Below, piece by piece: positions 18,037 to 63,559 of a stretch of 64,000 nucleotides of DNA. The notes under the pieces are model-generated. The model had not been told where the DNA came from and did no database searches. It worked only from the letters and a program-made list of their open reading frames with translations. Every line of letters starts with the position of its first letter. Within the stretch, counting starts at the first letter, position 1. The position numbers were made by a program, and so were the translations under genes. The DNA is from Anaeromicrobium sp. (lineage in GTDB: Bacteria > Bacillota > Clostridia > Peptostreptococcales > Thermotaleaceae), in contig NZ_JAOART010000045.1 of assembly GCF_025210435.1 (NCBI RefSeq), positions 1 through 64,000 on the forward strand, read 5' to 3'.

Positions 18037-18275
18037 TATAGATTTCGTAACACTAAGATTTCTTTATACAGTAACTTGCCTATAAGGGAAAATATATTGA
18101 AAATCTTTGGAACCCTGGAACGTCACAACATCCTATGCTACTCCGACATGACTCATGAACCTATCTACGGAGATTCACACTTTCGCTTGTGACAAGGACT
18201 TGGGTGGAAAAGATTTTCAATATATTTTCCTGAAATAGGCCCGCATAAAGCAAGTTTATACACCAGAAATCTATA
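18037..18275 (+). repeat. TATAGATTT structured repeat, full copy 1
   Basis: 239 bp. Terminal inverted repeats TATAGATTTC / GAAATCTATA are perfect over 10 bp. An inner perfect 22-bp stem pairs 18087-18108 with 18209-18230. A core inside the stem pairs GTCACAA with TTGTGAC. An outer AACTTGC/GCAAGTT helix forms between ends and stem. It has no open reading frame of note. It lies between the Rpn remnant and the cohesin/dockerin gene. Confidence 0.92.
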
Positions 18276-18310
18276 ATACTTCTATACTTCACTTGTTTTA
18301 GAAAAACTAA

Positions 18311-18333
18311 AGCCCTAGTCAAAAGCTAGGGCT
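18311..18333 (-). terminator. Terminator of the cohesin/dockerin-like gene
   Basis: AGCCCTAG / CTAGGGCT stem with a seven-base loop. On the minus strand it is followed by TTAGTTTTTC. Confidence 0.75.
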
Positions 18334-18344
18334 ATTCATACTTA

Positions 18345-19475
18345 TTACTTATTTGGTTCATAATTTGGATTAGCTATCATAAATTTACCTATCTCCAATA
18401 AATCATCTTCATCAATCGTGTCATTTGCTACAATATCCGTATTATATTTTGTAAGCTCAGCAGATTTTGGATCTTTGTTTAGGTGTCTGGCATCAATGCC
18501 TAGATCCAAAAGGGTAAATTCACCACTATTATTTACATCTGTTACTGCTTCTATAATTATGGTAGCTTCATCACATTCTTCATCTTTTAAATCCTTCTCC
18601 ATTTGGATACCATCAGAAACTCTACCCTTTATAATATCAACAAGGGCTTCTCCTGTACTAATTCCTTTAAATTTCAATTTCAGTAACTTTTTCTTATCAT
18701 TAATAATATTGCTCTCACCTTTACTTGCTAGAATAAACCTTAGTTCACCATTCTTTTCATCCTTATGTACTAGTTTTATTCCATCTAACTCTTCAGGATG
18801 TAAATACTCAAGTTTCTTACTATCATATGTTATTTTAATATCTTCAGCTGCAATCTCATTAATATTATCAATAACTAAATTAGCATACACCTCTTCACTT
18901 ACTCTTATTTTTTCTTTTTCTGGCTCTATGTCTAATATGCTTTTCTTTTCCTCATGATAAGATTTTAATGTACCATGTATATCTATAGTATCCATCACAA
19001 TATTTCCATCACTGTAGGGTTTATTTTTTTCTATAGAAACTACATGTTCTCCCTCTGCGAGTTTTGGACTTTGATAATATAATATATATCCATCAATGAG
19101 TTGTTGAGGAGCTGAAAAATTGTATAGTTTTCCATCAACATATACATTTACATTCTTATTTCTTCCATCATGGTAACATTGGCTTAATAATCTGAACTGA
19201 GTTCCTGTAAATTGGAATTTAACACCTGATTTTTTCGTCGTATCTTTTGAGTAATGGATTCCTCCCTTGGAAAAATACGAGCTGCCATCATCTATATCTC
19301 CCATATTTTCATAAACAAGCATAGTATTATCATCGTCATATCTTTTCCAACCCTCTTCTGGTTGTATTAGATTCTCACCCAGACTAGCAGCATAAACTGA
19401 TACTCCAGAATTTAAAAATACAAATGATAACAGCACTAAAAGAACCAGCATCCTCCTAGAAAGTTTTTTTCTCAA
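18345..19475 (-). CDS. Secreted protein with cohesin-like and dockerin-like domains
   Basis: About 376 residues. A signal peptide (VLLVLLSFVFLNSGVSVYA) leads into a beta-rich carbohydrate-binding-like region (about 35-170). A cohesin-like domain (about 185-290; LVIDNINEIAAEDIKITYD) and a C-terminal dockerin-like segment with Ca-binding-type DVNNSGEFTLLDL and DTIDEDDLLEIG follow. TTG at 19475 is the likely start, eight bases after AGGAG; an ATG at 19484 touches that site. No scaffoldin or dockerin enzymes are nearby, so a full cellulosome is not implied. It likely acts at the cell surface. Confidence 0.8.
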   Translation of the reverse strand: MRKKLSRRMLVLLVLLSFVFLNSGVSVYAASLGENLIQPEEGWKRYDDDNTMLVYENMGDIDDGSSYFSKGGIHYSKDTTKKSGVKFQFTGTQFRLLSQCYHDGRNKNVNVYVDGKLYNFSAPQQLIDGYILYYQSPKLAEGEHVVSIEKNKPYSDGNIVMDTIDIHGTLKSYHEEKKSILDIEPEKEKIRVSEEVYANLVIDNINEIAAEDIKITYDSKKLEYLHPEELDGIKLVHKDEKNGELRFILASKGESNIINDKKKLLKLKFKGISTGEALVDIIKGRVSDGIQMEKDLKDEECDEATIIIEAVTDVNNSGEFTLLDLGIDARHLNKDPKSAELTKYNTDIVANDTIDEDDLLEIGKFMIANPNYEPNK

Positions 19476-19639
19476 AATAATCATCTCCTCTTCTTCATTT
19501 ATATCTTAGATTATTGTAATATATTGTCACATAATATATAAGACTGTTTATTTGTGTATTTTGTCGATATAATGGAAATTTTAAGCATTTTTTAGAATTA
19601 AATTACATAATTACCAATATATTCTTATATATAAGGCAT

Positions 19640-19679
19640 AAAAAATGAAGGAATTGGGTACCCAATTCCTTCATTTTTT
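19640..19679. terminator. Perfect 40-bp palindrome, bidirectional terminator
   Basis: Arms of 20 bp meet at GGGTACCC and end in A6/T6, so it works in both directions. It lies 156 bases upstream of the cohesin/dockerin gene. The following 19680-19968 holds no gene I can support. Confidence 0.8.
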
Positions 19680-19968
19680 CATTTGTATCATATATGCTTT
19701 TACCCAATCTTCTCTTTATTTCTAAAATCATAACCATCCTTAATTAATTCAAAATGGCCTATATCCCTTGTGAATACTCCTATTTCCTAGATAATTTAGC
19801 AACCGTCTCCACATGTGATGTGTGCTAGGTGTAGATTCTTTATGTACTAGCTTATATATTAATTCGCTACAATATAAATCAAGGGTCTATAAAAAATAAT
19901 GTTAATACCAAAATTCTATTATGTCATATTTTAAGAATATTATGTAGCAAGTTTGCTACAAGTTCAGT

Positions 19969-20391
19969 CTATTTTACGCGTTGAAACATTGGATGACTTT
20001 CTTTAAATTGAACTAAGTCCCATAAGTTTCCGTATAAATCTTTGAATACTGCAACAATACCATAGGATTGTTCTTTTGGTTCTCTAACAAATTCAATTCC
20101 TTTTGCTATCATATCATTATAGTCTCTCCAAAAATCATCTGTCCCAAGAAATAAAAAAACTCTTCCTCCTGCTTGATTACCAATGAAAGCTATTTGTTCT
20201 GGTTTTGAAGCCCTTGCAAGTAATATTGTAGTTCCTGACGAGCCTGGTGGTGATACTACTACCCAACGTTTATCTTGCTCTGGTTGATATGTATCTTCAA
20301 TTAACGTAAAATGAAGTTTTTTTGTGTAAAACTCAATGGCTTCATCATAATCTTTAACAACCAAAGCAATATGTACAACAGTTTGTATCAT
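19969..20391 (-). CDS. VOC-family (glyoxalase/bleomycin-resistance fold) protein
   Basis: 140 residues, one VOC module pair: MIQTVVHIALVVKDYDEAIE at the start and FKDLYGNLWDLVQF near the end. His7 and the terminal-motif residues suit metal binding, but a Glu at the usual last ligand position is not certain. Substrate unknown; relatives are lyases or drug-binding proteins. AAGGGG precedes the ATG. Single gene next to the mobile element. Confidence 0.85.
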   Translation of the reverse strand: MIQTVVHIALVVKDYDEAIEFYTKKLHFTLIEDTYQPEQDKRWVVVSPPGSSGTTILLARASKPEQIAFIGNQAGGRVFLFLGTDDFWRDYNDMIAKGIEFVREPKEQSYGIVAVFKDLYGNLWDLVQFKESHPMFQRVK

Positions 20392-20493
20392 TTTATTACC
20401 CCTTCTTTCTTTATAGAATACAAAACCTTATGTCACAATATTCTACAAGTGTGTCTTTATCTTCTTTCATCATCTTGTCTATATTATAATAAA

Positions 20494-20517
20494 AGAGCCT
20501 TGTATTTACAAGACCCT
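20494..20517 (-). terminator. Terminator of the serine recombinase gene
   Basis: An 11-bp imperfect stem (AGAGCCTTGTA with TACAAGACCCT) and a two-base loop, seven bases past the recombinase stop. On the minus strand it is followed by TTTTATTAT. Confidence 0.6.
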
Positions 20518-20523
20518 TCTTTA

Positions 20524-22041
20524 TTAACCCATTAACTCTTTCATTATCTTTTCTGACCCATTAAATTTATAGTATATCTCTATTTTCCCATTGTCAGCTA
20601 CAACTATTTTATCAACAAATCTATTTAAAACCTCACGGTTTATAACCTTAAATTCTATTTTTTCCTCTATGGATGCTTTTAATCTATTCAAAAGCACTTC
20701 ATCAATTTCTTCATCTAGTTCAGCTCTAATACCTATCTGTCTTTCTTTTAATCTGTCTAATTCTTTTTCCTTAGATTGTGTTATTAATTTATACTCTTCC
20801 CTTGTTATATCTTCATTAATCAGTTTTTCCAATGCCTTAGATTTAAACTTTTCAATCTTATCTATTTTAGAATCTAATACTTTTAATTCTTTTTTTATCC
20901 CTATCTTATTGTTACTAATTCTTTCATTTAATGTTCTAAGTAAGTCTTTATTATTTAAGCTTTTTGATAACTTCTTTAAATCTTTTCTAATAATATCTAT
21001 CAGTTCATCTTCTATCACTAATTTTGCACTGCACGCTTTACTACCGTGTTTGTCATACTGTCCACATATGTAGCCACGTCTATTCTTTTTAAAATGATAC
21101 CCCTTCCCACAGTCATCACAATAAATCAATCCTGTAAACAAATTTACATTTTGATGTGGTCTACTACATTTATCACCATCTTCTGTTTTTCGTCTACGTG
21201 AAGCTATTAATGATTTTACAGTTTCAAAATCTTCTTTACTAATTATTGGTTCATGAGTATTTGCTACAATACTATGCTTATCTAACGGATTATCAATTCT
21301 ATTTTTATTTACTGCACTTATAGTTTCTTCTCTATTTTGGTCAAGGCATCCCGTATAGTGAGGATTTTCGAGTATTTTTCTCACAGTTGAACCATGCCAA
21401 AGTGGGCTTGCATTACTTTTCCCTAGAACTTCTGATGGAGTTCTAATTCCGTCATTGTATAAGCCTCTTGCAATAGCATCAAAACCTTTTCCACTTAGAT
21501 ATCCCCTAAATATTCTTCTTACAATATCTGCTGTTTCGTCATCTGATACTATTAACTTGCCATCTTCTTTTTTATACCCATATGGAGCACTTCCATTATG
21601 TTTTCCATTTTTTGCTCTTGTCTTTAATGTCATCTTAATTCTTTGAGATGTCCTTTGTACTTCCTGTTCGTATACCCACGCATATAATCCAAACATCGTA
21701 GTATTACCTTTTAAAGTATCAATAGCACCATCCATAGTAATAAGATGAATGCTATTATTCTCTAATAATTTCTTTAACTCCATAGCCAGTCCTTGATTTC
21801 TAGCTAATCTACTTAATTCTTTCGCTAATATAATATCAAACTTGCCCTCTTGAGCATCACTCAGCATAAGTTGATAATTTTTTCTGTTCTCTACTGTACC
21901 CGTCTTTGTATCTTCATAATACTTGTATATTTCCCATCCTTTTTCCCTAACATAGTTATCAAAAAACTTCTTTTGATAATCAATTGAATCTTTTTGCCCC
22001 TCTTTATCGCTTGATACCCTTGCATATACTGCTACTCTCAT
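20524..22041 (-). CDS. Large serine recombinase (integrase/transposase type)
   Basis: 505 residues. Resolvase catalytic domain (about 1-150) with the nucleophile in VYARVSSDKEGQ and Arg residues in LSRLARN. Recombinase domain (about 165-275) with APYGYKKEDGK. Zinc ribbon with CDDCGKGYHF and a later CGQ...C. A coiled-coil tail (about 360-450) ends the protein. It catalyses site-specific integration and excision of mobile DNA without high-energy cofactors. The motifs are complete, so it is probably active. Attachment sites were not identified. It begins directly after a small gene with no gap. Confidence 0.95.
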   Translation of the reverse strand: MRVAVYARVSSDKEGQKDSIDYQKKFFDNYVREKGWEIYKYYEDTKTGTVENRKNYQLMLSDAQEGKFDIILAKELSRLARNQGLAMELKKLLENNSIHLITMDGAIDTLKGNTTMFGLYAWVYEQEVQRTSQRIKMTLKTRAKNGKHNGSAPYGYKKEDGKLIVSDDETADIVRRIFRGYLSGKGFDAIARGLYNDGIRTPSEVLGKSNASPLWHGSTVRKILENPHYTGCLDQNREETISAVNKNRIDNPLDKHSIVANTHEPIISKEDFETVKSLIASRRRKTEDGDKCSRPHQNVNLFTGLIYCDDCGKGYHFKKNRRGYICGQYDKHGSKACSAKLVIEDELIDIIRKDLKKLSKSLNNKDLLRTLNERISNNKIGIKKELKVLDSKIDKIEKFKSKALEKLINEDITREEYKLITQSKEKELDRLKERQIGIRAELDEEIDEVLLNRLKASIEEKIEFKVINREVLNRFVDKIVVADNGKIEIYYKFNGSEKIMKELMG

Positions 22042-22203
22042 TTAAGCTACCTCCTTCTTACTTGAGGCTTTGTCTACATTTTCACTTATTACTTCTTCAA
22101 TAATAGATTTGTAATATGCTGAAAAAATACCTTCTAAACTACAACTACTATTATCAGTGAAGTATCTTTCTACTTTTTGAATTGTTTTAACTTGTTTTTT
22201 CAT
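22042..22203 (-). CDS. Small protein coupled to the serine recombinase
   Basis: 53 codons (MKKQVKTIQKVERYF to SSKKEVA) end two bases before the recombinase ATG, and the last codons contain the recombinase ribosome site. Its own ATG follows GGGGGAAACT. No family is recognised. Size, charge and position suggest an accessory or directionality factor, but there is no motif to prove it. Confidence 0.6.
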   Translation of the reverse strand: MKKQVKTIQKVERYFTDNSSCSLEGIFSAYYKSIIEEVISENVDKASSKKEVA

Positions 22204-22404
22204 CCCAGTTTCCCCCTAGATTATGAACTTCATTTTATCTAGGAGAAACTGTCCCTGTTTTTGTTTTAAAAAATAAAAATATGTTCTTCAATACCTACAA
22301 GTGCTATTTTTTATAGTCCATTCTTATTTTTTGGTCAAATGCATTATAACCTGTTTTAAACTGTTTGCCAGCCCTATAAATAAATTAGAAACATAACTGA
22401 ATAA

Positions 22405-22441
22405 AGATATATGATCGGGGCAAAGCCCCGATCATATATCT
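22405..22441. terminator. Very strong GC-capped hairpin
   Basis: A perfect 17-bp stem (AGATATATGATCGGGGC and its complement) with a three-base AAA loop, 30 bases past the tyrosine recombinase stop. It lacks a long T run. Likely a terminator or transcript end within the mobile element. Confidence 0.65.
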
Positions 22442-22471
22442 CTTACCTGAAAATAAAAACTTCCTAACCTT

Positions 22472-23059
22472 TTAGCTAGGAAGCTTAATATGTTTCTGAA
22501 GTGCTTGCTCTATTTCTGGTAATTGAACTCCCAAGTACCTTTGGGTAATACTAGAATTTGAATGTTGTAGTAAGGTTCTAACCAATTCAATATTATAATT
22601 ATTATCTTGATAGATGGATGTAGCAAAATATTTCCTAAAAGAATGTGTCGATACCCCTGATAGCTTTAAATATTGAGTAGTAGTACAGTGCAAATGCTTT
22701 TGTACTGCTCTAACTGTAATAGGAAACAACCTCTGATTAGGTCTAATTCCTTGTTCTAAGGCATATCCCTGAATAAAGGTAAAAACCTCACTCGGAACTG
22801 TAAACTCTCTGCTCTTTCCCGTCTTTTCTTCCTTGATATCTAATCTATATCGGTTACCATCTCTGATAATATCGGATAATCTTAATTTCATGACATCTCC
22901 AATACGTAAGCCTAAGTTTGCCATAATAGTCAATATAGTTGCTATACGAGGATTAGGTTTTATTTGTTTACCATCTTTAGTAGTAAATCCTCCCCGTATA
23001 GTAGTAATTATCAACTCATATTCTTGGTCCGTTAAAATCTTTGTTTTTATATTAGCCAT
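22472..23059 (-). CDS. Minimal tyrosine recombinase
   Basis: 195 residues, essentially the catalytic domain alone. R in LGLRIGDVMKL, Lys in the beta-hairpin, HxxR in THSFRKYF, H in LQHSNSSI and the Tyr nucleophile in TQRYLG are all present. Start at 23059 because AAGGGGGGAG lies just upstream; a longer frame to 23095 contains that site. Full-size integrases have an extra core-binding domain, which is absent here. It resembles small FimB/XerC-like recombinases and could resolve or invert DNA within the element. Confidence 0.9.
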   Translation of the reverse strand: MANIKTKILTDQEYELIITTIRGGFTTKDGKQIKPNPRIATILTIMANLGLRIGDVMKLRLSDIIRDGNRYRLDIKEEKTGKSREFTVPSEVFTFIQGYALEQGIRPNQRLFPITVRAVQKHLHCTTTQYLKLSGVSTHSFRKYFATSIYQDNNYNIELVRTLLQHSNSSITQRYLGVQLPEIEQALQKHIKLPS

Positions 23060-23199
23060 ATATTTCTCCCCCCTTGTCAATGAATTTTCTAGCAAAGTTC
23101 CTTTTTATCTATTTGTAAAGTTCCTATTTTTACCATCTTAATTTCAGTATCCTTTTATATAAGCATAGTTCTTATAATGTATATTTTATGAACTTGGAT

Positions 23200-23748
23200 T
23201 TATTTTTTATTTATGTTCTTAAGCTCCCTATATAGAGTAGATGTAGAAATTCCTGTTATACGTTTAATATCTTTAATTTTATAACCTAGATTATACAGTT
23301 TTATAGCATCTGATATCTTCGTTATATCTTTCTTTCTACCTATTCGTCCTTCTGATTTTGCCTTTTCGATTCCTTTGATTCTTTTTACCCCTTTCCAATA
23401 ATTGTCTATTTTTATAAAATCATTAAATATCTGATAATAAGCTTTATAAATATAATCTAGTTCTTCTAAGGAAACTAATTCTATTTCATTATCTTCTAGG
23501 TAGGTTAGAGTCTTAATAAGGTCTCTGAAATTATCGGATAAATCCGCTATACTTCTAACAATTAATATATCTTTTGCTTTTATAACCTCTTTTATTAATT
23601 TTCTTAAATCTGCTCTTTCTTTGCTATCAATAGCATCCACAAATATTTGACTTTCTCTAAGTTGGGATTCATTTAACAATTTTATAAGTGAACTATTATC
23701 TATATTAATACCCTTCATTGAATTTTCTTGCATATATGCATATATCAT
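23200..23748 (-). CDS. Resolvase/invertase-like protein lacking catalytic residues
   Basis: 182 residues with the layout of a small serine resolvase: N-terminal domain (1-120), E-helix linker, and a C-terminal Hin-type helix-turn-helix with YKIKDIKRITGISTSTLYRE. Aligned by eye, the YxRVS motif reads YMQEN (Ser to Asn, Arg to Gln), and the arginines of RLSR read DLSD. Recombination activity is therefore not expected. It may bind DNA as a regulator or accessory factor. CAGGGGGT precedes the ATG. The adjacent iteron-like repeats are candidate binding sites. Confidence 0.8.
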   Translation of the reverse strand: MIYAYMQENSMKGINIDNSSLIKLLNESQLRESQIFVDAIDSKERADLRKLIKEVIKAKDILIVRSIADLSDNFRDLIKTLTYLEDNEIELVSLEELDYIYKAYYQIFNDFIKIDNYWKGVKRIKGIEKAKSEGRIGRKKDITKISDAIKLYNLGYKIKDIKRITGISTSTLYRELKNINKK

Positions 23749-23775
23749 TTTACTCTATACCCCCTGTACAAATAT

Positions 23776-23986
23776 TTTCTAAACCTCTAGAGTATTTGGG
23801 AATACTATAATTTCTAAAGCATTTGATATTCCCAGTAATTTTCATAGATTCCAATATTCCCAACTTTCCCACTTTCTTTTTTCAGAAAATATGCTTTAAA
23901 AATAGTTTTTCGAGAAAAAGAAAAAACATTAATGGGAATTCCCAAATTCAATTTTGTTTTAATTTCTAGAGATTCTAATGTTCCTA
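23776..23986. repeat. Iteron-like repeats and GGGAAT palindromes
   Basis: Three imperfect 24-bp direct repeats at 23811-23834, 23839-23862 and 23963-23986 share TTTCtaAGatt-AATRTTCCCA. Around them lie the palindrome GTATTtgggAATAC (23792-23805) and TGGGAATTCCCA (23933-23944). The motif CCTCTAGAGT occurs at both ends (23784 and 23990). The pattern suggests cooperative protein binding, an origin or an operator. Confidence 0.6.
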
Positions 23987-24014
23987 TATCCTCTAGAGTT
24001 TCTGAAAATATTAT

Positions 24015-24308
24015 TTAAAAAACTCTTACTATCCTTATATCTGCTATATTTACTTCTATTTCTTCTCCTGTCAATTCATTAAACATTAGTAAAATAGCCG
24101 GTTCTGTTCTAGCTATTAACTTGAAATTCTTGTATGAAGCTTCTATAACTGTTTTGTCATACAATTCTATTAACAACGTAAATCTCTTTAATAGTAGTGT
24201 CAATACCCTTTTACTAATAGCACTATCATTTGTCATAAGTACAAATTCTACTCCTTCTAGTCCACATATCCTATTTTCCTCTATGTTGCTGATTATCTGT
24301 TTTTGCAT
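24015..24308 (-). CDS. Unknown protein of the mobile element (97 aa)
   Basis: 97 residues, no family recognised. Mixed alpha/beta composition with an Ile/Val-rich end (EIEVNIADIRIVRVF). AGAGGGGGT precedes the ATG at suitable spacing. It lies 44 bases after the next gene in the same direction, and probably in one transcript with it. Confidence 0.65.
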   Translation of the reverse strand: MQKQIISNIEENRICGLEGVEFVLMTNDSAISKRVLTLLLKRFTLLIELYDKTVIEASYKNFKLIARTEPAILLMFNELTGEEIEVNIADIRIVRVF

Positions 24309-24352
24309 TTGCTGTTACCCCCTCTTTCTTTGATAGTAGGGCAAAATGCCTA

Positions 24353-24736
24353 CTAAAACGCTAATTCATCCTTATCTTCCCAACACTCATTACTTTCTTC
24401 TTCATCATTGAGTTCTCTAAAATGTTCTAATAATTCCTCATCATTTTCGTTAAATTTTTGCTCTATCATACTGTTAATAAGTTCTTGTAACGAGTTCAAA
24501 TCCTCATTTTCAACAACAGTAAGCACATCTTTATATCCCTTTTCCTTACAAGAATTGTCCACCAAAGTAGATAATACCAACTGCGCTCCTTGCTCTTGAA
24601 TATCTTGTAGACTAATAGTAATACCACCATCGAATCTGTGATTTAACATATATAATACTAATGCTGCGAGTTGCTGATTCAATGGTAATTTAATCGTTAC
24701 CTGTGGTATATGGTCAAATGGTTTTTGTTGAAACAT
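24353..24736 (-). CDS. Unknown acidic protein of the mobile element (127 aa)
   Basis: 127 residues. The first half is compact (HIPQVTIKLPLNQQLAALVL) and the last third highly acidic (NDEELLEHFRELNDEEESNE). No family recognised. AAAGGGGTG precedes the ATG. Probably the first gene of the leftward element transcript. The acidic tail recalls DNA mimics or protein-contact modules, but that is only a composition argument. Confidence 0.65.
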   Translation of the reverse strand: MFQQKPFDHIPQVTIKLPLNQQLAALVLYMLNHRFDGGITISLQDIQEQGAQLVLSTLVDNSCKEKGYKDVLTVVENEDLNSLQELINSMIEQKFNENDEELLEHFRELNDEEESNECWEDKDELAF

Positions 24737-25619
24737 TTTTTCTGCACCCCTTTCTTTATCATCAATTAATATACATCCAACTGCAGTCTATATATGTGAT
24801 TGAATACGAATTATTGCTTCTGATTATGTTATATATGCCCATCTATAAAGCTTATAATCCCTTTTACCTTAGTTACTCTTTTTCTCATCTGCTTTACTTT
24901 TCTTTCTTGCTTTCTTTGTTTTGTTAACTCCATATATACTAAGTATATTCAATTGATTTACTCCACTTTGTCACAGTTTTTTCTTTTTTCTTCTCTTCTC
25001 CTCTTCTTATATTTCATGTCTCATATTTTATGTCCAACTTTTATTTTATCTATAATTTATTTTGTTCAACTGTCCATTTACCGTTGCCGTTACTGAATTA
25101 TTCTAATTTGAATTTTATTGATGTTTTCTATAACAGAGCATGTTATAAATTGCCTATATTTTCATTTACTTATTTGCTCAATTAAATTCATATTGTCCTG
25201 ATCTGTTAATTTTGGTAATTGAGATTGGAAAGGATAAAAGGTGAGTGGGTTGTAATTGTAACTACTATTAATGTAACACTAAATACATACTGGATTAATC
25301 AACCACACCCAAAGCCATCTATAAAAATAAATATGCAAAAAAATAAGAGCCTTAGCTCTCAAATTCAAAATGTATGCTTTTTCATTATTTGCTCCAGAAT
25401 CCATACAAACCCTTACAATAACTATATTCTTAGCACCTCAGTTTTTTTATTACCATAATAAGCTCTCAAACTATTGTAATTTCAGTAAATCTTTAATTCT
25501 ATAATTTAAAACTTTCTATCTAATCATCCTCTAATACATCCTCCACCTCTATCTACTAATACATATTTTCTTAATCCTCAATTAGATAGATTTTAGATTT
25601 AGTCAATAGCTTATAACCT
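24737..25619. other. Gene-free stretch between the mobile element and rlmD
   Basis: About 880 bases of AT-rich DNA with pyrimidine-rich runs (24890-25020). Open frames are short and lack ribosome sites. It probably contains the right boundary of the mobile element and the promoter of its first gene. No attachment duplication could be seen by eye. Confidence 0.4.
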
Positions 25620-28643: not shown

Positions 28644-28878
28644 TATAGATTTATGAACACTAAGCTTTCTTTATACAGTAACTTGCCTATAAGGGAAACT
28701 ATTGAAAATTTTTGAAACCCTGGAACGTCACAACATCCTATGCTACTCCAACATGACTCATGAACCTATCTACCAAGATTCATACTTTCGCTTGTGACAA
28801 GGACTTGGGTGGAAAAGATTTTCAATAGTTTCCTGAAATAGGCCCGCATAAAGTAAGTTTATAATCAAAAAATCTATA
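28644..28878 (+). repeat. TATAGATTT structured repeat, full copy 2
   Basis: 235 bp with ends TATAGATTT / AAATCTATA. The inner stem is shorter than in other copies, yet both arms changed together: GAAACTATTGAAAAT pairs with ATTTTCAATAGTTTC, instead of the AAAATATATTG version. It ends four bases before the ribosome site of the GerMN gene, so it lies in that gene's leader. Confidence 0.92.
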
Positions 28879-28898: not shown

Positions 28899-29855
28899 AT
28901 GCTCAATACTTTTTTCAACTTATGTTTAATATGCTTAATTTGTATAGCCAACCTTGCTTATCCAAGTTATATTAACAACATTTCCTTAGATGCTTTTAAG
29001 ATTGATACAAAAGAATCTACTAAAACTTCCACAGAAATTGTACAACCTAAAGAAGAAACTAGATCGGAAGAAATCTATACTAAAAATTTACCAAATTATA
29101 TTAAACCCATTTCTATAAATGATGAAACCCAACTACCTATTACACTATTTTTACCAACCATATCTAAGAAACATTTATTTCCCACAACTAAATATATACG
29201 GGCTACAAGAACTCCCGTTACATCCACTGTTAATTTTTTAAAGACCTATATGAATATACCTAAAATAAATAGTCTTAAAATAAGGAATAGGGTTTTGTAT
29301 TTAAATTTTTCATCAAGAAATAACTTTAGTGAATATGATAGTGAAATTTTATATATTCTTGTGAATACTCTAACTTCAATAGATGGGGTAGATGGAGTTT
29401 TATTCTTAGTAGATGGTAAAAAAGTAGATAATTTATTAGGTAATGAAAATACTATTAATATTTTCTATAATAATTATTCCTATGCCTATTTAAGTTATGA
29501 TTATAATGGGCGAAATCTGTTAGTTCCTACCAATGTAGCTCATATGGATAAAGTGATAAAAGTATTAAAATCTGACAAGGACGAATTAAAAGGAGTTATG
29601 CCTAAGGGAGTAGAACTATTAGATTACTCTATTACTCAGGATACTATAACACTAAACTTTAATAAAAACTTCTTAAAGGCTTACAATGATAGACCTGATT
29701 TAAAGAATATGTTAATAGACAGTTTAAATTATTCTTATACTAGTTTTGAAGAAATAAATAATTTAGAAATAAAAGTAGATGGTAAGAAAATCACTACTTT
29801 CGGAGATTATGATTTATCAGTACCTATGAAAGGTTTAAGTATTATTAATCCATAA
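28899..29855 (+). CDS. Exported protein with two GerMN domains
   Basis: 318 residues. A hydrophobic N-terminus suggests export. A polar linker precedes two GerMN modules (about 95-190 and 205-310); LKIRNRVLYLNFS and ITQDTITLNFNK match the domain's repeated strand pattern. GerM-type proteins act in spore formation and germination in Bacillus. GAGGAGG precedes the ATG. It is transcribed alone, toward a shared terminator, and its leader is a full structured repeat. Confidence 0.8.
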   Translation: MLNTFFNLCLICLICIANLAYPSYINNISLDAFKIDTKESTKTSTEIVQPKEETRSEEIYTKNLPNYIKPISINDETQLPITLFLPTISKKHLFPTTKYIRATRTPVTSTVNFLKTYMNIPKINSLKIRNRVLYLNFSSRNNFSEYDSEILYILVNTLTSIDGVDGVLFLVDGKKVDNLLGNENTINIFYNNYSYAYLSYDYNGRNLLVPTNVAHMDKVIKVLKSDKDELKGVMPKGVELLDYSITQDTITLNFNKNFLKAYNDRPDLKNMLIDSLNYSYTSFEEINNLEIKVDGKKITTFGDYDLSVPMKGLSIINP

Positions 29856-31844: not shown

Positions 31845-31845
31845 A

Positions 31846-33181: not shown

Positions 33182-33250
33182 TATAGATTTATCAATCTGA
33201 AGTTTTCCCTATACAGTAACTTTCCTGAAGTAGGCTCACATAAACTTTGA
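33182..33250 (+). repeat. Short, right-truncated copy of the TATAGATTT repeat
   Basis: It begins TATAGATTTATCAA, has tatacagtaactt, and jumps directly to cctgaagtaggctcacataaa. The central stem and core are missing, and the right end is lost near 33250. It lies upstream of the efflux operon. Confidence 0.65.
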
Positions 33251-41073: not shown

Positions 41074-41112
41074 AAAATCCCCCCTTTACTTTTGTGAGCT
41101 TGTAAAACCAAA

Positions 41113-42425: not shown

Positions 42426-42514
42426 TATAGATTTATGAACCTAAATCTTTATTTATGCTGTAACTTTCCTGAAATAGGCTCATATAAAGCTGGTTTATGA
42501 ATGGGAAATCTATA
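42426..42514 (+). repeat. Short TATAGATTT repeat without core
   Basis: 89 bp with both ends intact (TATAGATTT / AAATCTATA). It has the outer region and 'actttcctgaaataggctcat' but lacks the whole inner stem and core. Its last four bases TATA are also the first four of the adjoining full copy. Confidence 0.85.
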
Positions 42515-42749
42515 GATTTCGTAACACTAAGCTTTCTCTATACAGTAACTTGCCTATAAGGAAAAATATATTGAAAATCTTTGGAACCCTGAAACGTCAC
42601 AACATCCTATGCTCCTTGAACATGACACATGAACCTATCTACGAAGATTCTCACTTTCGCTTGTGACAAGGACTTGGGTAGAAAAGATTTTCAATATATT
42701 TTCCTGAAATAGGCCCACATAAAGCAAGTTTATACACCAGAAATCTATA
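42511..42749 (+). repeat. TATAGATTT structured repeat, full copy 3
   Basis: 239 bp with perfect 10-bp ends, an inner AAAATATATTGAAAATCTTT-type stem and GTCACAA/TTGTGAC core. It sits head-to-tail with the short copy and leaves about 225 bases to the HD-GYP start on one side and 28 to the DUF624 stop on the other. Confidence 0.92.
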
Positions 42750-56446: not shown

Positions 56447-57175
56447 TTACTCCATATTAACAATTCTGTCTATGGGAAGTTTTGCTTCTATAGCCCTTTT
56501 AATTCCACGTTCCACTACTCCCACATGTTCTGGTCTATGGGCATCACTATTTATGACAAACATGGCTCCTTCTTCCATTGCAATCTTTATATCTTCTACT
56601 CTCAAATAGGAATGACTACTATTTATTTCAAGTAAGGTATTAGTCTCAGCTGCTGCCTTTGCCACTTCCTTCATATATACACACCCCTTATCCCCTGGAT
56701 GGGTAAGTATGTCTATATTATAATTATACATGGCTTTTATAACCGTGTCTGTATTTATAATTTTATTTTTCTTATCCATATGAGTTAGATATTTACCTAA
56801 AAAATTCCTCCCATGAATTATACTATCATGGATAAACTTATTAGATAGGGCACCAAAGTGATACCCTGCTAAGACTATATCTATATTATCTAATATTTCT
56901 CTTTCCACATCTAATCGTCCATCAAAACCTAATATATTACATTCTATTCCAAATTTTACTTTTATCTTATCTTGTTTTTCATTTATATTTCTAATCTTTT
57001 CCTTCATTTCAGCTATACGACTTTTTTTTATTCCATATAGAAAATGACCATATCCATGATCTGTTATGGCAATTTCTTTAAGGCCTCTTCCTATGGCCAC
57101 ATTAACATTGTCCTCTATAGTTCCCTTTCCATGACTATATATGGTATGTGTATGATAATCACCTATAAGTTTCAT
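56447..57175 (-). CDS. PHP-domain phosphoesterase
   Basis: About 242 residues. Metal ligands in GDYHTHTIYSHGKGTIEDN, ITDHGYG, and the end NSDAHRPEHVG. PHP phosphoesterases of this YcdX-like type hydrolyse phosphate esters with a three-metal centre; substrate unknown. Start at 57175 after AAAGAGG. It is in the murB-rapZ run, conserved in Clostridia. Confidence 0.88.
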   Translation of the reverse strand: MKLIGDYHTHTIYSHGKGTIEDNVNVAIGRGLKEIAITDHGYGHFLYGIKKSRIAEMKEKIRNINEKQDKIKVKFGIECNILGFDGRLDVEREILDNIDIVLAGYHFGALSNKFIHDSIIHGRNFLGKYLTHMDKKNKIINTDTVIKAMYNYNIDILTHPGDKGCVYMKEVAKAAAETNTLLEINSSHSYLRVEDIKIAMEEGAMFVINSDAHRPEHVGVVERGIKRAIEAKLPIDRIVNME

Positions 57176-57204
57176 ATATATTCCTCTTTTCCTAGGTATT
57201 TTGA

Positions 57205-57227
57205 AGGGACAGTCAAAAACTGTCCCT
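57205..57227. other. Hairpin in the leader of the PHP gene
   Basis: AGGGACAGT / ACTGTCCCT perfect 9-bp stem with a five-base loop, 30 bases before the start codon. No T run. It may regulate the leader. The GGGAC(G/A)GT core is also used by the terminator at 29869. Confidence 0.45.
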
Positions 57228-57389
57228 GCCTTAGGCATATTCAAAAAATAAATTAATCATTTTACTGGTTATTTGAATTATTTTCTTCATTATGGAATCG
57301 CTTACATATGTTTAATATGCTCGCTCACCATGCCTTGAAAACAATCCAAATTCCTCAGAAAATTGACTAGTTTATTTTTTTCATATGCC

Positions 57390-58307
57390 TTACTCTATTT
57401 CACCAATGATTTTCACTTCTGGATTTAAGCATACTCCAAATTTATCTTTTACAGTTTTTTGAACTAATCTTATTAAGTCTAATACATCCTTAGCAGTGGC
57501 ATTATCCACATTAACAATAAACCCACTATGCAATTCTGACACTTGGGCTCCCCCTACTTTTACACCTTTTAATCCTGCGTCTTGGATTAGCTTACCAGCA
57601 AAATGATCAGGTGGTCTTTTAAAAGTACTTCCTGCACTAGGTAGACTTAAGGGTTGCTTTGTAGTTCTTTTTTTAGTCAATTCTTTTATTATATTTTTTA
57701 TTTCTTCATAATTACCCTTTTCTAACTTTATATCCACCTCTAAGACTATATAACCTTCCCTTTGTACATTACTGTTTCTATATTCAAATCCTAGTTCCTC
57801 ATTATTTAAATAAACCACATTGCCAAACTTATCTATAACAGAAGCCCCTGTTACCACGTCCTTCATTTCACCACCATAGGCCCCTGCATTCATAGTAACT
57901 GCACCACCTAATGTTCCTGGTATGCCGCTGGCAAATTCAAAGGTTTTAAGGGAATTTTTAAGGGCCAAATTGGCAAGGTTAGATAAAAGTACTCCCGCCT
58001 GGGCAGTTATCTTTTCATCTTCCACATCTACCTTATTAAAATTACCTCCAATTTTTATGATAGCACCTCTTATGCCCTTATCTGCTACTAATAAATTACT
58101 ACCATTTCCTATAATATAGTATTTCACTTCCTCTTCATTAAAAACTTTTAGAGCATGTTTTACTTCTCCTACAGATTTGGGTAAAATCATAAGATCTACA
58201 GGCCCACCTATTTTAAATGAAGTATGTTTTGACATAATTTCATTTTCTCTTATATTGTCCTTATCTATTCCTTCTATTAATCTATCATATATTCCTTTTA
58301 TATGCAC
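57390..58307 (-). CDS. murB: MurB, UDP-N-acetylenolpyruvoylglucosamine reductase
   Basis: 305 residues. FAD-binding region with TSFKIGGPVDLMILPKS and IPGTLGGAVTMNAGAYGGEM, catalytic Ser in PSAGSTFKRP. It reduces the enolpyruvyl group in the second committed step of peptidoglycan synthesis. GTG start at 58307, ten bases after AGGAG. Length is right for the short MurB type. Confidence 0.95.
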   Translation of the reverse strand: MHIKGIYDRLIEGIDKDNIRENEIMSKHTSFKIGGPVDLMILPKSVGEVKHALKVFNEEEVKYYIIGNGSNLLVADKGIRGAIIKIGGNFNKVDVEDEKITAQAGVLLSNLANLALKNSLKTFEFASGIPGTLGGAVTMNAGAYGGEMKDVVTGASVIDKFGNVVYLNNEELGFEYRNSNVQREGYIVLEVDIKLEKGNYEEIKNIIKELTKKRTTKQPLSLPSAGSTFKRPPDHFAGKLIQDAGLKGVKVGGAQVSELHSGFIVNVDNATAKDVLDLIRLVQKTVKDKFGVCLNPEVKIIGEIE

Positions 58308-58374
58308 TAAATCTCAACTCCTAAACCTTCACTATTCTAAATAAAGTATAACATTAAAAGGTATTAAATGAAAA

Positions 58375-59724
58375 TCATTCTTTCTTAATGGTTTTATAAG
58401 TATTTATTTTATTTTTAGCATGATCTAATCCTTTTTTTATGTTCTTATTCTTAATAAGCATCTGCCTTAATTGACTATAAAAATACTCTTGAGTCATATT
58501 CCAATTTGGATTAGATATATTTTTAGTATATTTCAAATTTTTTTCTACAAAATCCATTTTATCATTTCCCATATATATTTCCTCTATATTTTTCTTCACT
58601 GGAAATACTCCCACTTCATTTAAGGCCCTTTGGTATTCATCCCTAGATAAAAATTTTAAAAATTTCACACACATCTTCAATTTTTCCTCATCCTCTTGCT
58701 TAAAAATCCCATAGGCTGAAGTTACCTTAGCTGCTGATATGGGATTTTGCCTCTTACCTATAGGATAATTTCCAACTTGAAATTCAAATCCTTCTCCCGA
58801 TTCATAGGCTTTATTTAAAGTATTTATGGCCCAGGTTCCAGCAGGATATACTCCAATTTTTTTGTCCTTATAAAAACTTTTCCAAGCTTGTATTTCTGAA
58901 CTTTCCCCAAAATCACCTGGTACTACCTTGTGTTTATTTTTTAGATCTACTATTTTTTTTACCCCACTTATGGCTTTACTATCATTAAATACATATTCTC
59001 CCTTACTATTAAAAACTTCTCCTCCATCTGATAAAAGTATTCCCCAAAGACTATAATCATTTACACCCATATAAGCATTAAACCCATAATAATCCATTTT
59101 CCCATCACCATCTTCATCCACTGTGAGTTTTTTAAGAGTTTCTATAAATTCATCATAGGTCCAATTTCCTTCCTTAGGAATTTCAATTCCCCGTTCATTA
59201 AACATTTCCACATTCAACAAAAGATTATAAGTACTCATAGTATAAGGAAATCCCCAAATTTTCCCCTTATATTTTACTGCCCTTAGGGCATCTGTTTTAT
59301 ACATTCCGATCTCATCTTTGGTCATAAATTCATCTATATTTTGGAGTAACCCCTTAGATATGATTCTCACATCTGTAGCCACAGGCCCTATATCTGGATA
59401 AGTTTTCGTATCAACAGCCGTATCTAACAACATATGGCCCGTCTTTCTTGATAAGGGTTTAAATTCTATATATACGCCAGGATTTTCTTTCTCAAATCTC
59501 TTTATCTTATTCAATATCCAACCATAGTTACTTCCCGTTTGAATATTAGTTTTAGGATAATCCCAAAAGCTTATTACTCCTTTAAATAAATACTCTTCCT
59601 TCTTTATAGTATTATTTTTTATTTCTTCTTTCACATATATAAAATAAAAGGGGCCAATTATTATGAATAATATAAGTATGAAAATTAAAAGGGATACAAA
59701 ATTGCTCCTACCTTTACTACTCAC
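58375..59724 (-). CDS. Membrane-anchored family 1 solute-binding protein
   Basis: About 449 residues. N-terminal membrane helix (VSLLIFILILFIIIGPFYF) with no lipobox Cys, then a sugar-binding fold with KIKRFEKENPGVYIEFKPL. A DEDGDGKMDYYG loop resembles a calcium site. Start taken as GTG 59724, eight bases after AGGAGG, since GTG 59733 lies in that site. No permeases or ATPase lie next to it, so it is an orphan receptor or sensor. Confidence 0.85.
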   Translation of the reverse strand: MSSKGRSNFVSLLIFILILFIIIGPFYFIYVKEEIKNNTIKKEEYLFKGVISFWDYPKTNIQTGSNYGWILNKIKRFEKENPGVYIEFKPLSRKTGHMLLDTAVDTKTYPDIGPVATDVRIISKGLLQNIDEFMTKDEIGMYKTDALRAVKYKGKIWGFPYTMSTYNLLLNVEMFNERGIEIPKEGNWTYDEFIETLKKLTVDEDGDGKMDYYGFNAYMGVNDYSLWGILLSDGGEVFNSKGEYVFNDSKAISGVKKIVDLKNKHKVVPGDFGESSEIQAWKSFYKDKKIGVYPAGTWAINTLNKAYESGEGFEFQVGNYPIGKRQNPISAAKVTSAYGIFKQEDEEKLKMCVKFLKFLSRDEYQRALNEVGVFPVKKNIEEIYMGNDKMDFVEKNLKYTKNISNPNWNMTQEYFYSQLRQMLIKNKNIKKGLDHAKNKINTYKTIKKE

Positions 59725-59826
59725 GCCTACCACCTCCTACTTATATCTATTAAAAAGTTCTTATGCATATTCTCTTAATTTCTAAGTTAGTATATTTATA
59801 AAAAAACTATTGCAAACATATGCCTG

Positions 59827-60065
59827 TATAGATTTCTGGTGTATAAACTTGCTTTATGCGGGCCTATTTCAGGAAAATATATTGAAAATCTTTTCCACCC
59901 AAGTCCTTGTCACAAGCGAAAGTTTGAATCTTCGTATATAGGTTCATGTGTCATGTTGGAGTAGCATAGGATGTTGTGACGTTCCAGGGTTCCAAAGATT
60001 TTCAATATATTTTCCCTTATAGGCAAGTTATTGTATAGAGAAAGCTTAGTGTTACGAAATCTATA
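59827..60065 (-). repeat. TATAGATTT structured repeat, full copy 4
   Basis: 239 bp in reverse orientation relative to copies 1-3. Perfect 10-bp ends. It has the common AAAATATATTGAAAATCTTT-type stem and the ACCC/GGGT, GTCACAA/TTGTGAC core. Located between the divergent solute-binding and spoIIR genes. Confidence 0.92.
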
Positions 60066-60215
60066 GAGATAGGTCTGAGTTGAGGAAGCTATATACCTGG
60101 GAATTGAGAATGGACAAAAATAACAAGGAAAAAAATATATAATATAGTTTAAAAATCCCCCAACTTGCTAATACTGAAAATAAGAAAAAATATTAGTAAT
60201 GGGGGAATTATTATT

Positions 60216-60872
60216 ATGAATAAAAAATTTATGGGTATCATTTTATTTTGTGGAATAATATTATTTACTACGTTCATGTCTCTAGGTAAAGTTTACGAAA
60301 ATCAAAGGGCTTATAAAAATGAATTAATAAGATTTCATGTTATAGCCAATAGTGATTCACCAAAGGATCAAGCTTTAAAATTAAAAGTAAGGGATGAAGT
60401 TATAAAAAAATTAAATCCTAAATTTGAAAAATCAAAGAGTCTAGATGAAAGCAGAGATATAATAAAGAAAAATATAGATATTATAGAAGAAGTAGCAGGA
60501 GAGGTAATCGCATCAAATGGATATAATTATGAGGTTAAGGCTAGTTTAGGAGAAGTTAATTTTCCAACTAAAAACTATGGAAGCATTACCCTACCAGCTG
60601 GAGAGTATGAAGCCCTAAGAGTAGTTATAGGAGATGGAGATGGGGCCAATTGGTGGTGTGTATTGTTCCCGCCCCTATGTTTCATAGATATGGAAAATGG
60701 ACTTACAGATGAAAGAACTAAAGAAGAAATGAAAAGTGTTTTAACTAAGGAAGAGTTTAATATGATATACACTAAGAAAAATCAGGAACTTCCCCTTAAA
60801 TTAAAATTTAAGATAGTGGAAGTAATAGAGAGTGCTAAGGAAAAAATAAATAATAAATTAGTAATGAAGTAA
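60216..60872 (+). CDS. spoIIR: SpoIIR, intercompartmental sporulation signal
   Basis: 218 residues. An export signal (FMGIILFCGIILFTTFM) precedes LIRFHVIANSDSPKDQALKLK, the hallmark opening of SpoIIR, and a later GANWWCVLFPPLCFID. The protein is secreted from the forespore and triggers SpoIIGA to process pro-sigma-E. ATG at 60216 after GGGGGAATT. A sigma-F promoter was not identified with confidence. Shows that the host forms endospores. Confidence 0.94.
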   Translation: MNKKFMGIILFCGIILFTTFMSLGKVYENQRAYKNELIRFHVIANSDSPKDQALKLKVRDEVIKKLNPKFEKSKSLDESRDIIKKNIDIIEEVAGEVIASNGYNYEVKASLGEVNFPTKNYGSITLPAGEYEALRVVIGDGDGANWWCVLFPPLCFIDMENGLTDERTKEEMKSVLTKEEFNMIYTKKNQELPLKLKFKIVEVIESAKEKINNKLVMK

Positions 60873-60894
60873 AGTCAATCATATGGATTGGCTT
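60872..60894 (+). terminator. Terminator of spoIIR
   Basis: AAGTCAATC / GATTGGCTT stem with one wobble, five-base loop, then TTTTCTTTT. Confidence 0.75.
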
Positions 60895-60918
60895 TTTTCT
60901 TTTAATAAAAAAATCATA

Positions 60919-61157
60919 TATAGATTTCTTGATTTTAAACTTGCTTTATGTGGGCCTATTTCAGAAAAATATATTGAAAATTTTTTCCACCCAAGTTCTT
61001 GTCACAAGCGAAAGTATGAATCTTCGTAGATAGGTTCACGTCTCATGTTGGAGCAGCATAGGATGCTGTGACGTTCCTCAATTCCAAAAATTTTCAATAT
61101 ATTTTCCTTTATAGGCAAGTTACTATATAAAGAAATTTTAGTGTTACGAAATCTATA
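60919..61157 (-). repeat. TATAGATTT structured repeat, full copy 5
   Basis: 239 bp, reverse orientation. Within the inner stem a C-G pair is replaced by T-A in both arms (AATTTTT with AAAAATT instead of AATCTTT with AAAGATT), which keeps the pairing. It lies between spoIIR and sleB, 65 bases before the sleB ATG. Confidence 0.92.
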
Positions 61158-61222
61158 GTGAATAATTAAATACAACCTGTTTAAAACTAATAATGTGAAT
61201 ATGTAGAAAGGGAGAGTTTTGT

Positions 61223-61936
61223 ATGAATAAAAAATATGGCAGAATTCTATTATTAATTATAGTTATGGGAATTATAATAGGCATACTGAATATGACCATG
61301 GCAGAGACCTTATATTGGGGGGCCAGGGGGGAAACGGTAAGGAGTTTGCAGGATAAATTAAAAAGATGGGGTTATTTAGAGGGAAATGTGGATGGTGTAT
61401 ATGGAGCTCAAACCTATCGTGCTGTTGTAAAATTTCAAAAGAAACATGGACTAGTGGCCGATGGAGTGGTGGGAAGTAAGACTGCACAAAAGTTAGGATT
61501 AACTTTAAAAAGTAGCAAAACCACACCTAAGGGGGGAGCTAAAACCACAAGTAGTCAGAAAAATAGTAAGAGTATGGGATATAGGGATAATGAAGTACAA
61601 CTTTTAGCTAAAGCAATAAATGGAGAAGCCAGGGGAGAACCTTATACGGGGCAGGTTGCCGTGGGGGCAGTTATTTTAAATAGGGTAAAGCATGCTTCTT
61701 TCCCAAATACCATAGCAGGGGTAATATATCAACCAGGAGCTTTTGAAGCCGTTGCTAATGGACAAGTAAATGCCAAATTAGTAGAAAGTTCTGTGAAGGC
61801 AGCAAGGGATGCATTAAATGGTTGGGACCCTACAGGTGGTTGCAGATATTATTGGAACCCAGCTACGGCAACTAGCAAATGGATATGGAGTAGGAAGGTG
61901 GAAAAGAAAATAGGAAAGCACTGGTTTGGAAATTAA
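61223..61936 (+). CDS. sleB: SleB, spore cortex-lytic enzyme
   Basis: 237 residues. Signal peptide, a PG_binding_1 domain (about 33-90; GARGETVRSLQDKLKRWGYL), a Ser/Lys linker, and the SleB/CwlJ hydrolase domain (about 120-237) with catalytic Glu in NGEARGEPYTGQVAV and GGCRYYWNP. It cleaves spore cortex peptidoglycan in germination. It needs YpeB, whose gene follows by 13 bases. AAAGGGAGAG precedes the ATG. Confidence 0.95.
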   Translation: MNKKYGRILLLIIVMGIIIGILNMTMAETLYWGARGETVRSLQDKLKRWGYLEGNVDGVYGAQTYRAVVKFQKKHGLVADGVVGSKTAQKLGLTLKSSKTTPKGGAKTTSSQKNSKSMGYRDNEVQLLAKAINGEARGEPYTGQVAVGAVILNRVKHASFPNTIAGVIYQPGAFEAVANGQVNAKLVESSVKAARDALNGWDPTGGCRYYWNPATATSKWIWSRKVEKKIGKHWFGN

Positions 61937-61949
61937 GGAGAGGATAAGG

Positions 61950-63278
61950 ATGAATAAAAAAAACATATTACCCATAGTTTTAGGACTAGCATTAATAATA
62001 ACTGCCTATTGGGGGTATGATCAGTATAGGGAAAAAAGGAGGTATCATACCCATCTAGTAAATGACTTTCAAAGAAGGTATTATGACTTATTAGGTAGTG
62101 TTCAAACTATAAATACAGATTTATCAAAGCTGTTGGTTTCAACTGGATCTAAGGAAAATATGATCCTTTATTCTAACATATGGAGAAATGCTTATAATGC
62201 ACAGGAGGAAATTTCACAATTTCCAATAAAGCATGGAGAATTACAAAAGACAGAAAAGTTTTTAAGTCAATTAGGGGATTATACCTTTGCCATGGCACAA
62301 AAGAGTATAGACGATGAGGATTTAAGTAAAAAGGATAGGGAAAATCTAGAAAAACTTCGTGGGTATGCATCCACTTTGTCAGTTAGTTTAAATGAATTAA
62401 GGGATCAAACATTTTCTGGAAAAGTAATTAAGTTACGATTAAAGGATAAACCTATAGAAAAAAAGGAAAACCCCATGCAAAATAAGTTTATCCAATTTGA
62501 AGAAAGAATGGTAGAATATCCAGAATTAATTTATGATGGACCCTTCTCAGATCACGTGGCTGCTGGAATTAGTCCTAGATTAGAAGGAAAAAAAATATCC
62601 TTTGAAGATGCTAAGGAAGTGGCAAAAAAATATTTTGGAAATGTGAATATAAAAGGAGACTCAAAGGAACCTGGTGGAAAATTAAATACCTATAGTATCA
62701 CAGCGTATAAAAATGAAAAAAATCCTATTTACATAGATATTACACAAACTAAAGGATACTTTTCCACCATACTAAATAATAGAACCGTAGGAAAACCCAC
62801 CTTATCGAAAAAACAGGGTATAAAAAAGGCAAATGAGTTCTTAGAAAAAATAGGATTTAAAAATATGATTTCCACATATACTTTAACTTATAATAATGCC
62901 CTTTTAATAAACTATGTTTATAAAGAGGGGGATGTGGTCATGTACCCTGATTTAGTAAAGGTAAAGGTGGCCTTAGATAATGGAGAAGTGGTTGGGTTAG
63001 ATGCTACAAAACATTTGACATCTAATTATAAAAGGCAATTAAAAGCACCAATTATAAGCCTTCAAGAGGCAAAGGAAAGGATGGGAAATAGGGGAGAATT
63101 AGAAGGGGAAGGAAGGCTATGTGTAATTCCTACTAAAAGTTTAAAGGAAATCTTTTGTTATGAATTTAAGGTTACATATAAGGATGAAACATTTTTAATA
63201 TATATAAATGCCCATACGGGAAGAGAAGAGAGAATATTAAAATTGATTAAACAAGAGAATGGAACTTTAACAATGTAG
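61950..63278 (+). CDS. ypeB: YpeB, spore cortex protein required for SleB
   Basis: About 442 residues. Membrane anchor (ILPIVLGLALIITAYWGY), a helical region with YDLLGSVQTINTDLSKLL, and C-terminal PepSY modules (EDAKEVAKKYFG, KQGIKKANEFLEKIGF). It places and holds SleB inactive in the spore. ATG at 61950 chosen after AAGGAGAGG; a TTG at 61926 overlaps sleB. The sleB-ypeB pair is conserved across spore formers. Confidence 0.94.
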   Translation: MNKKNILPIVLGLALIITAYWGYDQYREKRRYHTHLVNDFQRRYYDLLGSVQTINTDLSKLLVSTGSKENMILYSNIWRNAYNAQEEISQFPIKHGELQKTEKFLSQLGDYTFAMAQKSIDDEDLSKKDRENLEKLRGYASTLSVSLNELRDQTFSGKVIKLRLKDKPIEKKENPMQNKFIQFEERMVEYPELIYDGPFSDHVAAGISPRLEGKKISFEDAKEVAKKYFGNVNIKGDSKEPGGKLNTYSITAYKNEKNPIYIDITQTKGYFSTILNNRTVGKPTLSKKQGIKKANEFLEKIGFKNMISTYTLTYNNALLINYVYKEGDVVMYPDLVKVKVALDNGEVVGLDATKHLTSNYKRQLKAPIISLQEAKERMGNRGELEGEGRLCVIPTKSLKEIFCYEFKVTYKDETFLIYINAHTGREERILKLIKQENGTLTM

Positions 63279-63285
63279 TATATTT

Positions 63286-63311
63286 AATGACATGGAAATT
63301 TCCATGTCATT
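63286..63311 (+). terminator. Terminator of sleB-ypeB
   Basis: AATGACATGGAAA / TTTCCATGTCATT perfect 13-bp palindrome, then ATTTTTC. Confidence 0.85.
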
Positions 63312-63321
63312 ATTTTTCATT

Positions 63322-63559
63322 TATAGATTTATCAACACTAAGCTTTATTTATACAGTAACTTGCCTACGAAGGTAAATATATTTGAATTTTTAGGAATCC
63401 GGAGCGTCACTATATCTTAAGCATAGTAAACATGATACGTGAACCTAGTTTTAAAATTTACATTTTAGCATGTGACAGGCGACTTGGATGGATAAAAATT
63501 CAAATATATTTTCCTGAAGTAGGCTCATATAAAGCAAGTTTATAAATAAGAAATCTATA
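63322..63559 (+). repeat. TATAGATTT structured repeat, full copy 6 (divergent)
   Basis: 238 bp. The most divergent copy: the core has many substitutions, yet GCGTCAC / GTGACAG and the long stem survive. The stem sequence is new (AAATATATTTGAATTTTTA with TAAAAATTCAAATATATTT), both arms matching each other and not the other copies. It begins 11 bases after the ypeB terminator. Confidence 0.9.

Follow-up and report, generated by a model that had tools for sequence, protein, structure and literature searches.

The window analysed here, i.e., the whole stretch of 64,000 nt corresponding to positions 1-64,000 of contig NZ_JAOART010000045.1 (assembly GCF_025210435.1), carries six full copies of an intergenic repeat. 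They range from 235 to 239 bp, all start with TATAGATTT and all end with AAATCTATA, and their mean column identity is 92%. The preliminary description, which had reported six such copies with these ends and no coding capacity, holds in each of these respects: all six are present at the positions given below, and none contains an ORF of 60 aa or more. The element, of approximately 237 bp, has the layout TAGATTT...AAATCTA and is flanked by a duplicated TA. Throughout, the plus strand on which the repeat was originally read is taken as the reference orientation.

Four full copies lie on the plus strand of the window. The first, of 239 bp (18037..18275), sits between two minus-strand genes and is hence opposed to both; its structured inner unit, comprising the inner stem and the core and represented by covariance model R1, occupies 18078..18243 on the same strand. 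The second, of 235 bp (28644..28878), lies between divergent genes, 20 bp upstream of the ORF at 28899. The third (42511..42749) is opposed to its flanking genes and abuts the end of a core-less copy, with a TATA common to both. The fourth, of 238 bp (63322..63559), is the most diverged among the six, and was scored as running in the same direction as the genes in one orientation count and as an edge case in another. The two remaining copies are on the minus strand, one (59827..60065) in a gap between divergent genes and the other (60919..61157) between two plus-strand genes, to which it is opposed, directly after a terminator-like stem at 60871-60895. Three core-less pieces, all on the plus strand, complete the inventory: an 89-bp short form that keeps both ends (42426..42514), a truncated relative (33182..33244) and a right-end remnant (9068..9143). 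Where copies abut, the TA ends are common to the neighbours.

No named RNA class had been recognized previously, and this still stands: Rfam 15 gave no match above the gathering score in the window, and none at E values up to 10 on either strand of copy 18037 with short flanks. Furthermore, the Rfam matches present in six stretches of a sister species of the same genus (G001), namely OLE, T-box, FMN, glycine, fluoride and Clostridiales-2, all lie outside the repeat cores. In the open-access literature searched, no paper was recognized as reporting this repeat, a statement limited, for the end-motif search, to the matches listed.

The six copies are real members of a family, but they represent only the window's share of it. 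In the host genome (3.96 Mb, 148 contigs), a DNA search yielded 366 first-look candidates, the best 40 of which, once scored, gave at least 88 matches. The covariance-model search that had been proposed, carried out with R1 (the inner unit, built from 28 sequences), returned at least 150 core matches in the same genome (150 of 150 scored candidates), 85 in the sister species and 4 in a third genome (G015), some of these matches being possibly one place read on both strands; none was found in the remaining 14 of the 17 genomes of the family. The prospect that the six might be the only copies, not conserved elsewhere, thus did not materialize. Under stricter filters, the same three genomes were positive among 298 drawn from the order, 295 being without match, and only the host genome among 391 drawn from the class, a draw that may not include the other two. 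The third genome is that of Marinisporobacter sp. MAG McD1.33, in which mis-binning is possible because the places listed sit on contigs of 12.1, 6.8 and 14.6 kb. The exact core pattern occurred in at least two stretches among genome contigs, the two listed being from this MAG, and in none of the viral contigs; likewise, phage and plasmid records gave no match to the repeat.

Full copies of the host genome were counted in two samples, with 28 in 461,869 bases and 82 in 1,097,891 bases; the larger one also held 14 core-less and 18 other partial copies. Extrapolation of these densities suggests roughly 240-300 copies per genome, an estimate that leans high because the sampled contigs were already known to carry copies.

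The internal architecture announced earlier, a conserved core with a second helix enclosed by an inner stem, was found in both of its elements, the inner domain consisting of a stem of about 22 bp, the core and the second helix. Copy 18037 folds as RNA with -70.8 kcal/mol on the plus strand and -78.8 kcal/mol on the minus strand, and none of 200 shuffles folds equally well on either strand; the DNA fold energy is, as for RNA, slightly better on the minus strand (-37.3 vs. -36.4). In an alignment of 28 sequences with less than 92% identity, chosen from 46 and covering two subfamilies, 24 of 34 pairs show pair-keeping changes on both sides. Covariation scores 0.437 for these pairs and no more than 0.093 once the partners are slid; of 500 shuffles, which ignore relatedness, none reaches any of five covariation measures. 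Among 62 copies of the host genome, identity is lowest in the outer arms (0.74-0.76), and reaches 0.87-0.92 in the core and inner stem and 0.89-0.94 in the 9-bp ends. Compared between the subfamilies, the left core segment is the best preserved part of the inner unit, at 0.81 identity vs. 0.39-0.68 elsewhere in it, and the internal loops lie at like places in both. Compensatory changes have preserved the inner domain in two subfamilies that have grown apart in their outer arms. A structural constraint on the core is therefore very likely; the earlier proposal of a functional RNA or a protein-binding DNA stands, for either molecule, as far as constraint is concerned. The reverse strand of this core also carries a GGAUGU block, putatively CsrA-like.

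Regarding mobility, the host genome contains a DDE_3 (IS630) transposase. Its IS630 copies are each cut by a contig end, and the comparison of ends is accordingly one of 3′ ends at contig edges; all five assembled 3′ ends finish in AAATCTATA, in line, on the 3′ side, with the transposase that had been called for. Over the last 34 bases, two IS630 end variants share 27 and 25 positions with the right end of the repeat, and 23 and 20 with its left end. None of 5000 arm shuffles made for the first variant, in which the 9-bp end was kept, reaches 27/34 (shuffle mean 17.5). A further DDE_3 in the same genome (contig C107) is a decayed remnant without a AAATCTATA-type end. The host transposase, at E values up to 1e-10, has no match in the sister species or in the Marinisporobacter MAG, and a DDE_3 search gave 0 matches in the former and two in the latter. 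Another relative in the family (G009) possesses a two-frame IS630 with TATAGATAAAC ends. These ends resemble the first bases of several second-subfamily copies in the sister species.

Target duplication can be followed in the sister species, which is 84-92% identical to the window where the two are in synteny. The site of copy 28644-28878 is empty there: the two flank matches have just the two bases TA in common, the joined site aligns gap-free, and a single TA stands where the copy is flanked by two. On contig G001:C36, the site of 63322-63559 is also empty and the joined site with one TA aligns gap-free, with several mismatches nearby, while that of 60919-61157 is empty with a one-base gap in the alignment and a diverged left flank. 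Absence at the orthologous site hence concerns all three testable copies, no syntenic match spanning 18037, 42511 or 59827 having been found. The reverse case also exists, since the sister species carries a second-subfamily copy near 41,100 whose site is empty in the host genome. A joined-flank search within the retrieved loci gave nested copies only, and a Marinisporobacter flank considered as a syntenic site was discarded, its match in the sister species lying only in an apparent other IS. Duplication of a TA target upon insertion is strongly supported by the sequence comparison of one clean empty site and two less sharp ones. The repeat is almost certainly a non-autonomous, gene-free MITE of IS630 type, probably cross-mobilized by the IS630 transposase of the same genome that has matching 3′ ends; the initial suggestion of a MITE moved by a Tc1/IS630-like, TA-duplicating enzyme agrees with these data.

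The claim of copies in both orientations relative to genes did not hold. Four plus and two minus copies are indeed counted with respect to the window, but this does not translate to the genes: in the window three copies are opposed to them, two lie between divergent genes, and 63322 is the doubtful case mentioned above. With genes taken as simple ORF calls, the first 462 kb of the host genome contain 20 copies in co-directional gaps, and all 20 oppose the genes on the reference strand (the other 8 of 28 lie in divergent gaps (3), in a convergent one (1) or at edges (4)). Extending the count to 1.098 Mb and full copies only (82), 58 of 62 in co-directional gaps are opposed, the remainder lying in divergent gaps (11), in convergent gaps (5) or at edges (4); at three ORF cut-offs the opposed:same ratios are 56:4, 58:4 and 58:4 (p at most 9.1e-13). 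The sister species behaves alike, with 22 of 24 opposed among 30 matches (22:2 at the lowest of three cut-offs and 23:2 at each of the two higher ones), these being 30 of 38 after omission of 7 same-place repeats on the other strand and of a weak short match, L085. The claim is wrong precisely because copies in co-directional gaps nearly all point one way in both species. A set of 42 host loci, partly overlapping the other sets, gave 23 of 26. A control repeat of about 160 bp, with 31 copies in the same sample, split into 9 opposed and 10 same, with Fisher p values from 3.8e-5 to 9.2e-5, and the IS630 copies, each judged from one visible flanking gene, 2 opposed and 3 same. Partial copies are oriented too, at 8:1 for the core-less and 5:0 for the others. 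Of the 62 tandem copies, 12 lie in gaps that look operon-like, measuring no more than 60 bp once the element is subtracted. That the orientation lock relative to genes is real leaves us with hardly any doubt, and, as the copies oppose their flanking genes, a transcript through most of them would be the reverse complement of the reference sequence.

The origin of this lock is harder to define, since gene direction and GC skew are concordant at 404 of 450 tandem gaps. Of the 82 full copies, 73 run against the GC-skew-leading direction, and the control repeat leans 21:10 to the skew. Where genes and skew conflict (five cases), 3 copies follow the genes and 2 the skew, and copies in gaps between divergent or convergent genes follow the skew 13:3; replication may therefore contribute. 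Insertion after intrinsic terminators, as actually seen for 60919, was considered and set aside as the main cause: by our own stem-and-T-run rule, 13 of 81 copies have a terminator-like stem within the preceding 70 bp and, when the other strand is read, 8 of 81 have one within the following 70 bp (0.3 in shuffles), and the flanks of the copies show no sharp motif. Terminators are in any case expected in intergenic DNA.

The wobble pairs were also inspected for the strand that carries the fold. In 130 sequences, read on the reference strand, i.e., the one opposed to genes, 45 edges lead into G-U and 35 into A-C, and departures to Watson-Crick pairs number 35 from G-U and 4 from A-C; without pair 85-159, which is mis-registered (85-160 elsewhere), these figures become 45 vs. 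34 and 35 vs. 1. One pair stays G-U in 129 of 130 rows, and four covarying sites have 26 G-U vs. 5 A-C cells, while sites 42-204 and 59-186 go the other way. Changes private to single copies (19 G-U, 14 A-C) look near neutral. These counts do not single out one strand as functional.

Several explanations compete for these observations. One of them would see in the repeat a plain, functionless IS630 MITE, with stems kept by correction at the DNA level, through template switching between the palindrome arms, and an orientation derived from insertion or loss biased by the replication fork. It accommodates the consistent relation to GC skew, both in the full copies and in the non-tandem gaps (13 of 16), the confinement of matches to three genomes of one family and the near-neutral private changes. 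However, arm correction should erase mismatches, yet the internal loops sit alike in both subfamilies; the unpaired core sequence is conserved as well, and neither the control repeat nor IS630 displays the gene bias. We consider this explanation unlikely. Still less credit is given to a core serving as a DNA site for transposition, whether bound by the transposase or an accessory protein or used in cruciform processing, which appears quite unlikely: the copies are indeed more alike in the core than in the outer arms, but core-less copies exist, including the 89-bp element with both ends, and such a site would by itself leave the orientation unexplained.

Two other possibilities, both very improbable in our opinion, invoke an RNA. 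If the functional molecule were the strand opposed to genes, a small structured antisense RNA tolerated only as long as it stays clear of the gene downstream, G-U states would be expected to act as intermediates, as the departures, the almost invariant G-U pair and the four covarying sites indicate. Yet the edges into G-U and A-C show no clear difference, two sites have the opposite trend, and strand-biased mutation could mimic selection because the copies share one orientation; nor is there an excess of promoters or terminators in the one 1.6-kb stretch with two copies that was scanned, where 12 promoter-like sites compare with a shuffle mean of 8.7 (sd 2.8), a count that also bears on an outward promoter as a candidate cause of the orientation. 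As to a host-beneficial cis-regulatory RNA spread by transposition and controlling many genes, the orientation lock, the structural constraint (24 of 34 pairs) and the copies in operon-like gaps are compatible with it, but a conserved position at a gene or pathway is not what the three testable copies reveal, all of them being absent at the orthologous sites of the sister species.

The reading that we favour, and hold to be likely, is that of a MITE with a core that is functional, or else tolerated, when transcribed in one of the two orientations. The IS630 transposase of the same genome would cross-mobilize the element, leading to insertions at TA, and the inner domain would matter when transcription reads through. 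In the kept orientation, the RNA would form a self-contained domain, so that adjoining cistrons could keep working, or mRNA processing or stability between them could be tuned; copies in the other orientation would be purged. For the narrower proposition that the cause of the lock lies at the RNA level, we see the chances as evenly balanced. Besides the relation to GC skew, two observations run against a simple transcriptional reading: the G-U and A-C counts do not favour the strand made by flanking transcription, the G-U states of the opposite strand being more intermediate-like, and core-less and other partial copies are oriented too. A bolder variant, which we put forward tentatively and regard as rather unlikely, is that of a mobile RNA domain, i.e., a structured RNA that adopted IS630 ends to spread among operons, active or harmless only one way, its fold being kept as the arms changed.

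Structured interspersed repeats are known in Bacillota, as exemplified by bcr1 of the Bacillus cereus group, which resembles the present repeat in these traits and in host phylum, a likeness drawn by description only. The nearest element in its way of working is RUP of Streptococcus pneumoniae, an intergenic MITE of 107 bp described in 108 copies, with 9-bp TIR and a TA target, whose mobilization by an IS630-family element with similar ends has been proposed (PMC2229807, PMC3049150). It differs in length (vs. 235-239 bp here) and in host, being set apart by description rather than by alignment, and the review, in its available sections, reports no further signature of structure or function, whereas a covarying core and a strong gene-orientation bias characterize the repeat studied here. 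The pneumococcal BOX elements are likewise interspersed and structured when transcribed (PMC3049150), although they are composed of boxA, B and C parts, unlike this repeat. Leading-strand shares of 60.8, 60.9 and 63.3%, presumed to correspond to BOX, RUP and SPRITE, are given in the same source (PMC3049150), and would be much weaker than the bias found here. ERIC and Correia (NEMIS) elements are TA-ended MITEs that fold in RNA, and the effect of ERIC on mRNA stability depends on orientation (PMC2229807). Compared by description, they have other sizes and hosts, and in the present repeat the orientation bias is genome-wide.

What this family adds is thus a covarying core that outlives changes in the outer arms, together with the orientation lock. 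Bacterial MITEs are mostly viewed as passengers that land either way round; an orientation bias above 90% in two species, joined to a covarying core, offers many natural replicates on read-through and insertion survival. The family makes it possible to ask if a functional RNA can travel in a MITE, and pits transcription against replication as explanations for strand bias among insertions. Should the mobile RNA domain turn out to be true, hundreds of gene gaps would carry the same orientation-locked RNA module.

A second MITE-like family, about 160 bp in length and bounded by the termini AGGCATAT...ATATGCCT, is represented in the window by a copy at 57228-57391. In a 1.1-Mb sample of the same genome this family amounts to 31 copies, counted with a length threshold of at least 100 bp, and its orientation with respect to genes is unbiased there. 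The matching site of the window copy is empty in contig C19 of a sister species of the same genus (G001).

At 33182-33244, where the window carries a truncated, core-less relative of the main MITE, the sister species holds another inserted sequence, with a similar AAATCTATA at its terminus, and it is possible that one site has been used repeatedly. The same species presents, at loci L208 and L196, intergenic inserts made of TTTAGGG-like runs that face each other in a hairpin arrangement; the sites of these inserts differ in the genome of the window. It also carries OLE RNA and three Clostridiales-2 RNAs (L077, 5590-6179; L080 and L074).

Within the window, 12-bp tandem repeats resembling TTTTCAATTCCC occur at 15821-15906 and 17857-17906, embedded in duplicated stretches of about 240 bp.

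Repeats also bound draft contigs of the source genome, among C13, C16, C105, C125, C2 and C77. Several draft contigs start within copies of the main MITE and five have as their terminus the IS630 element; thus, these repeats break up the assembly.
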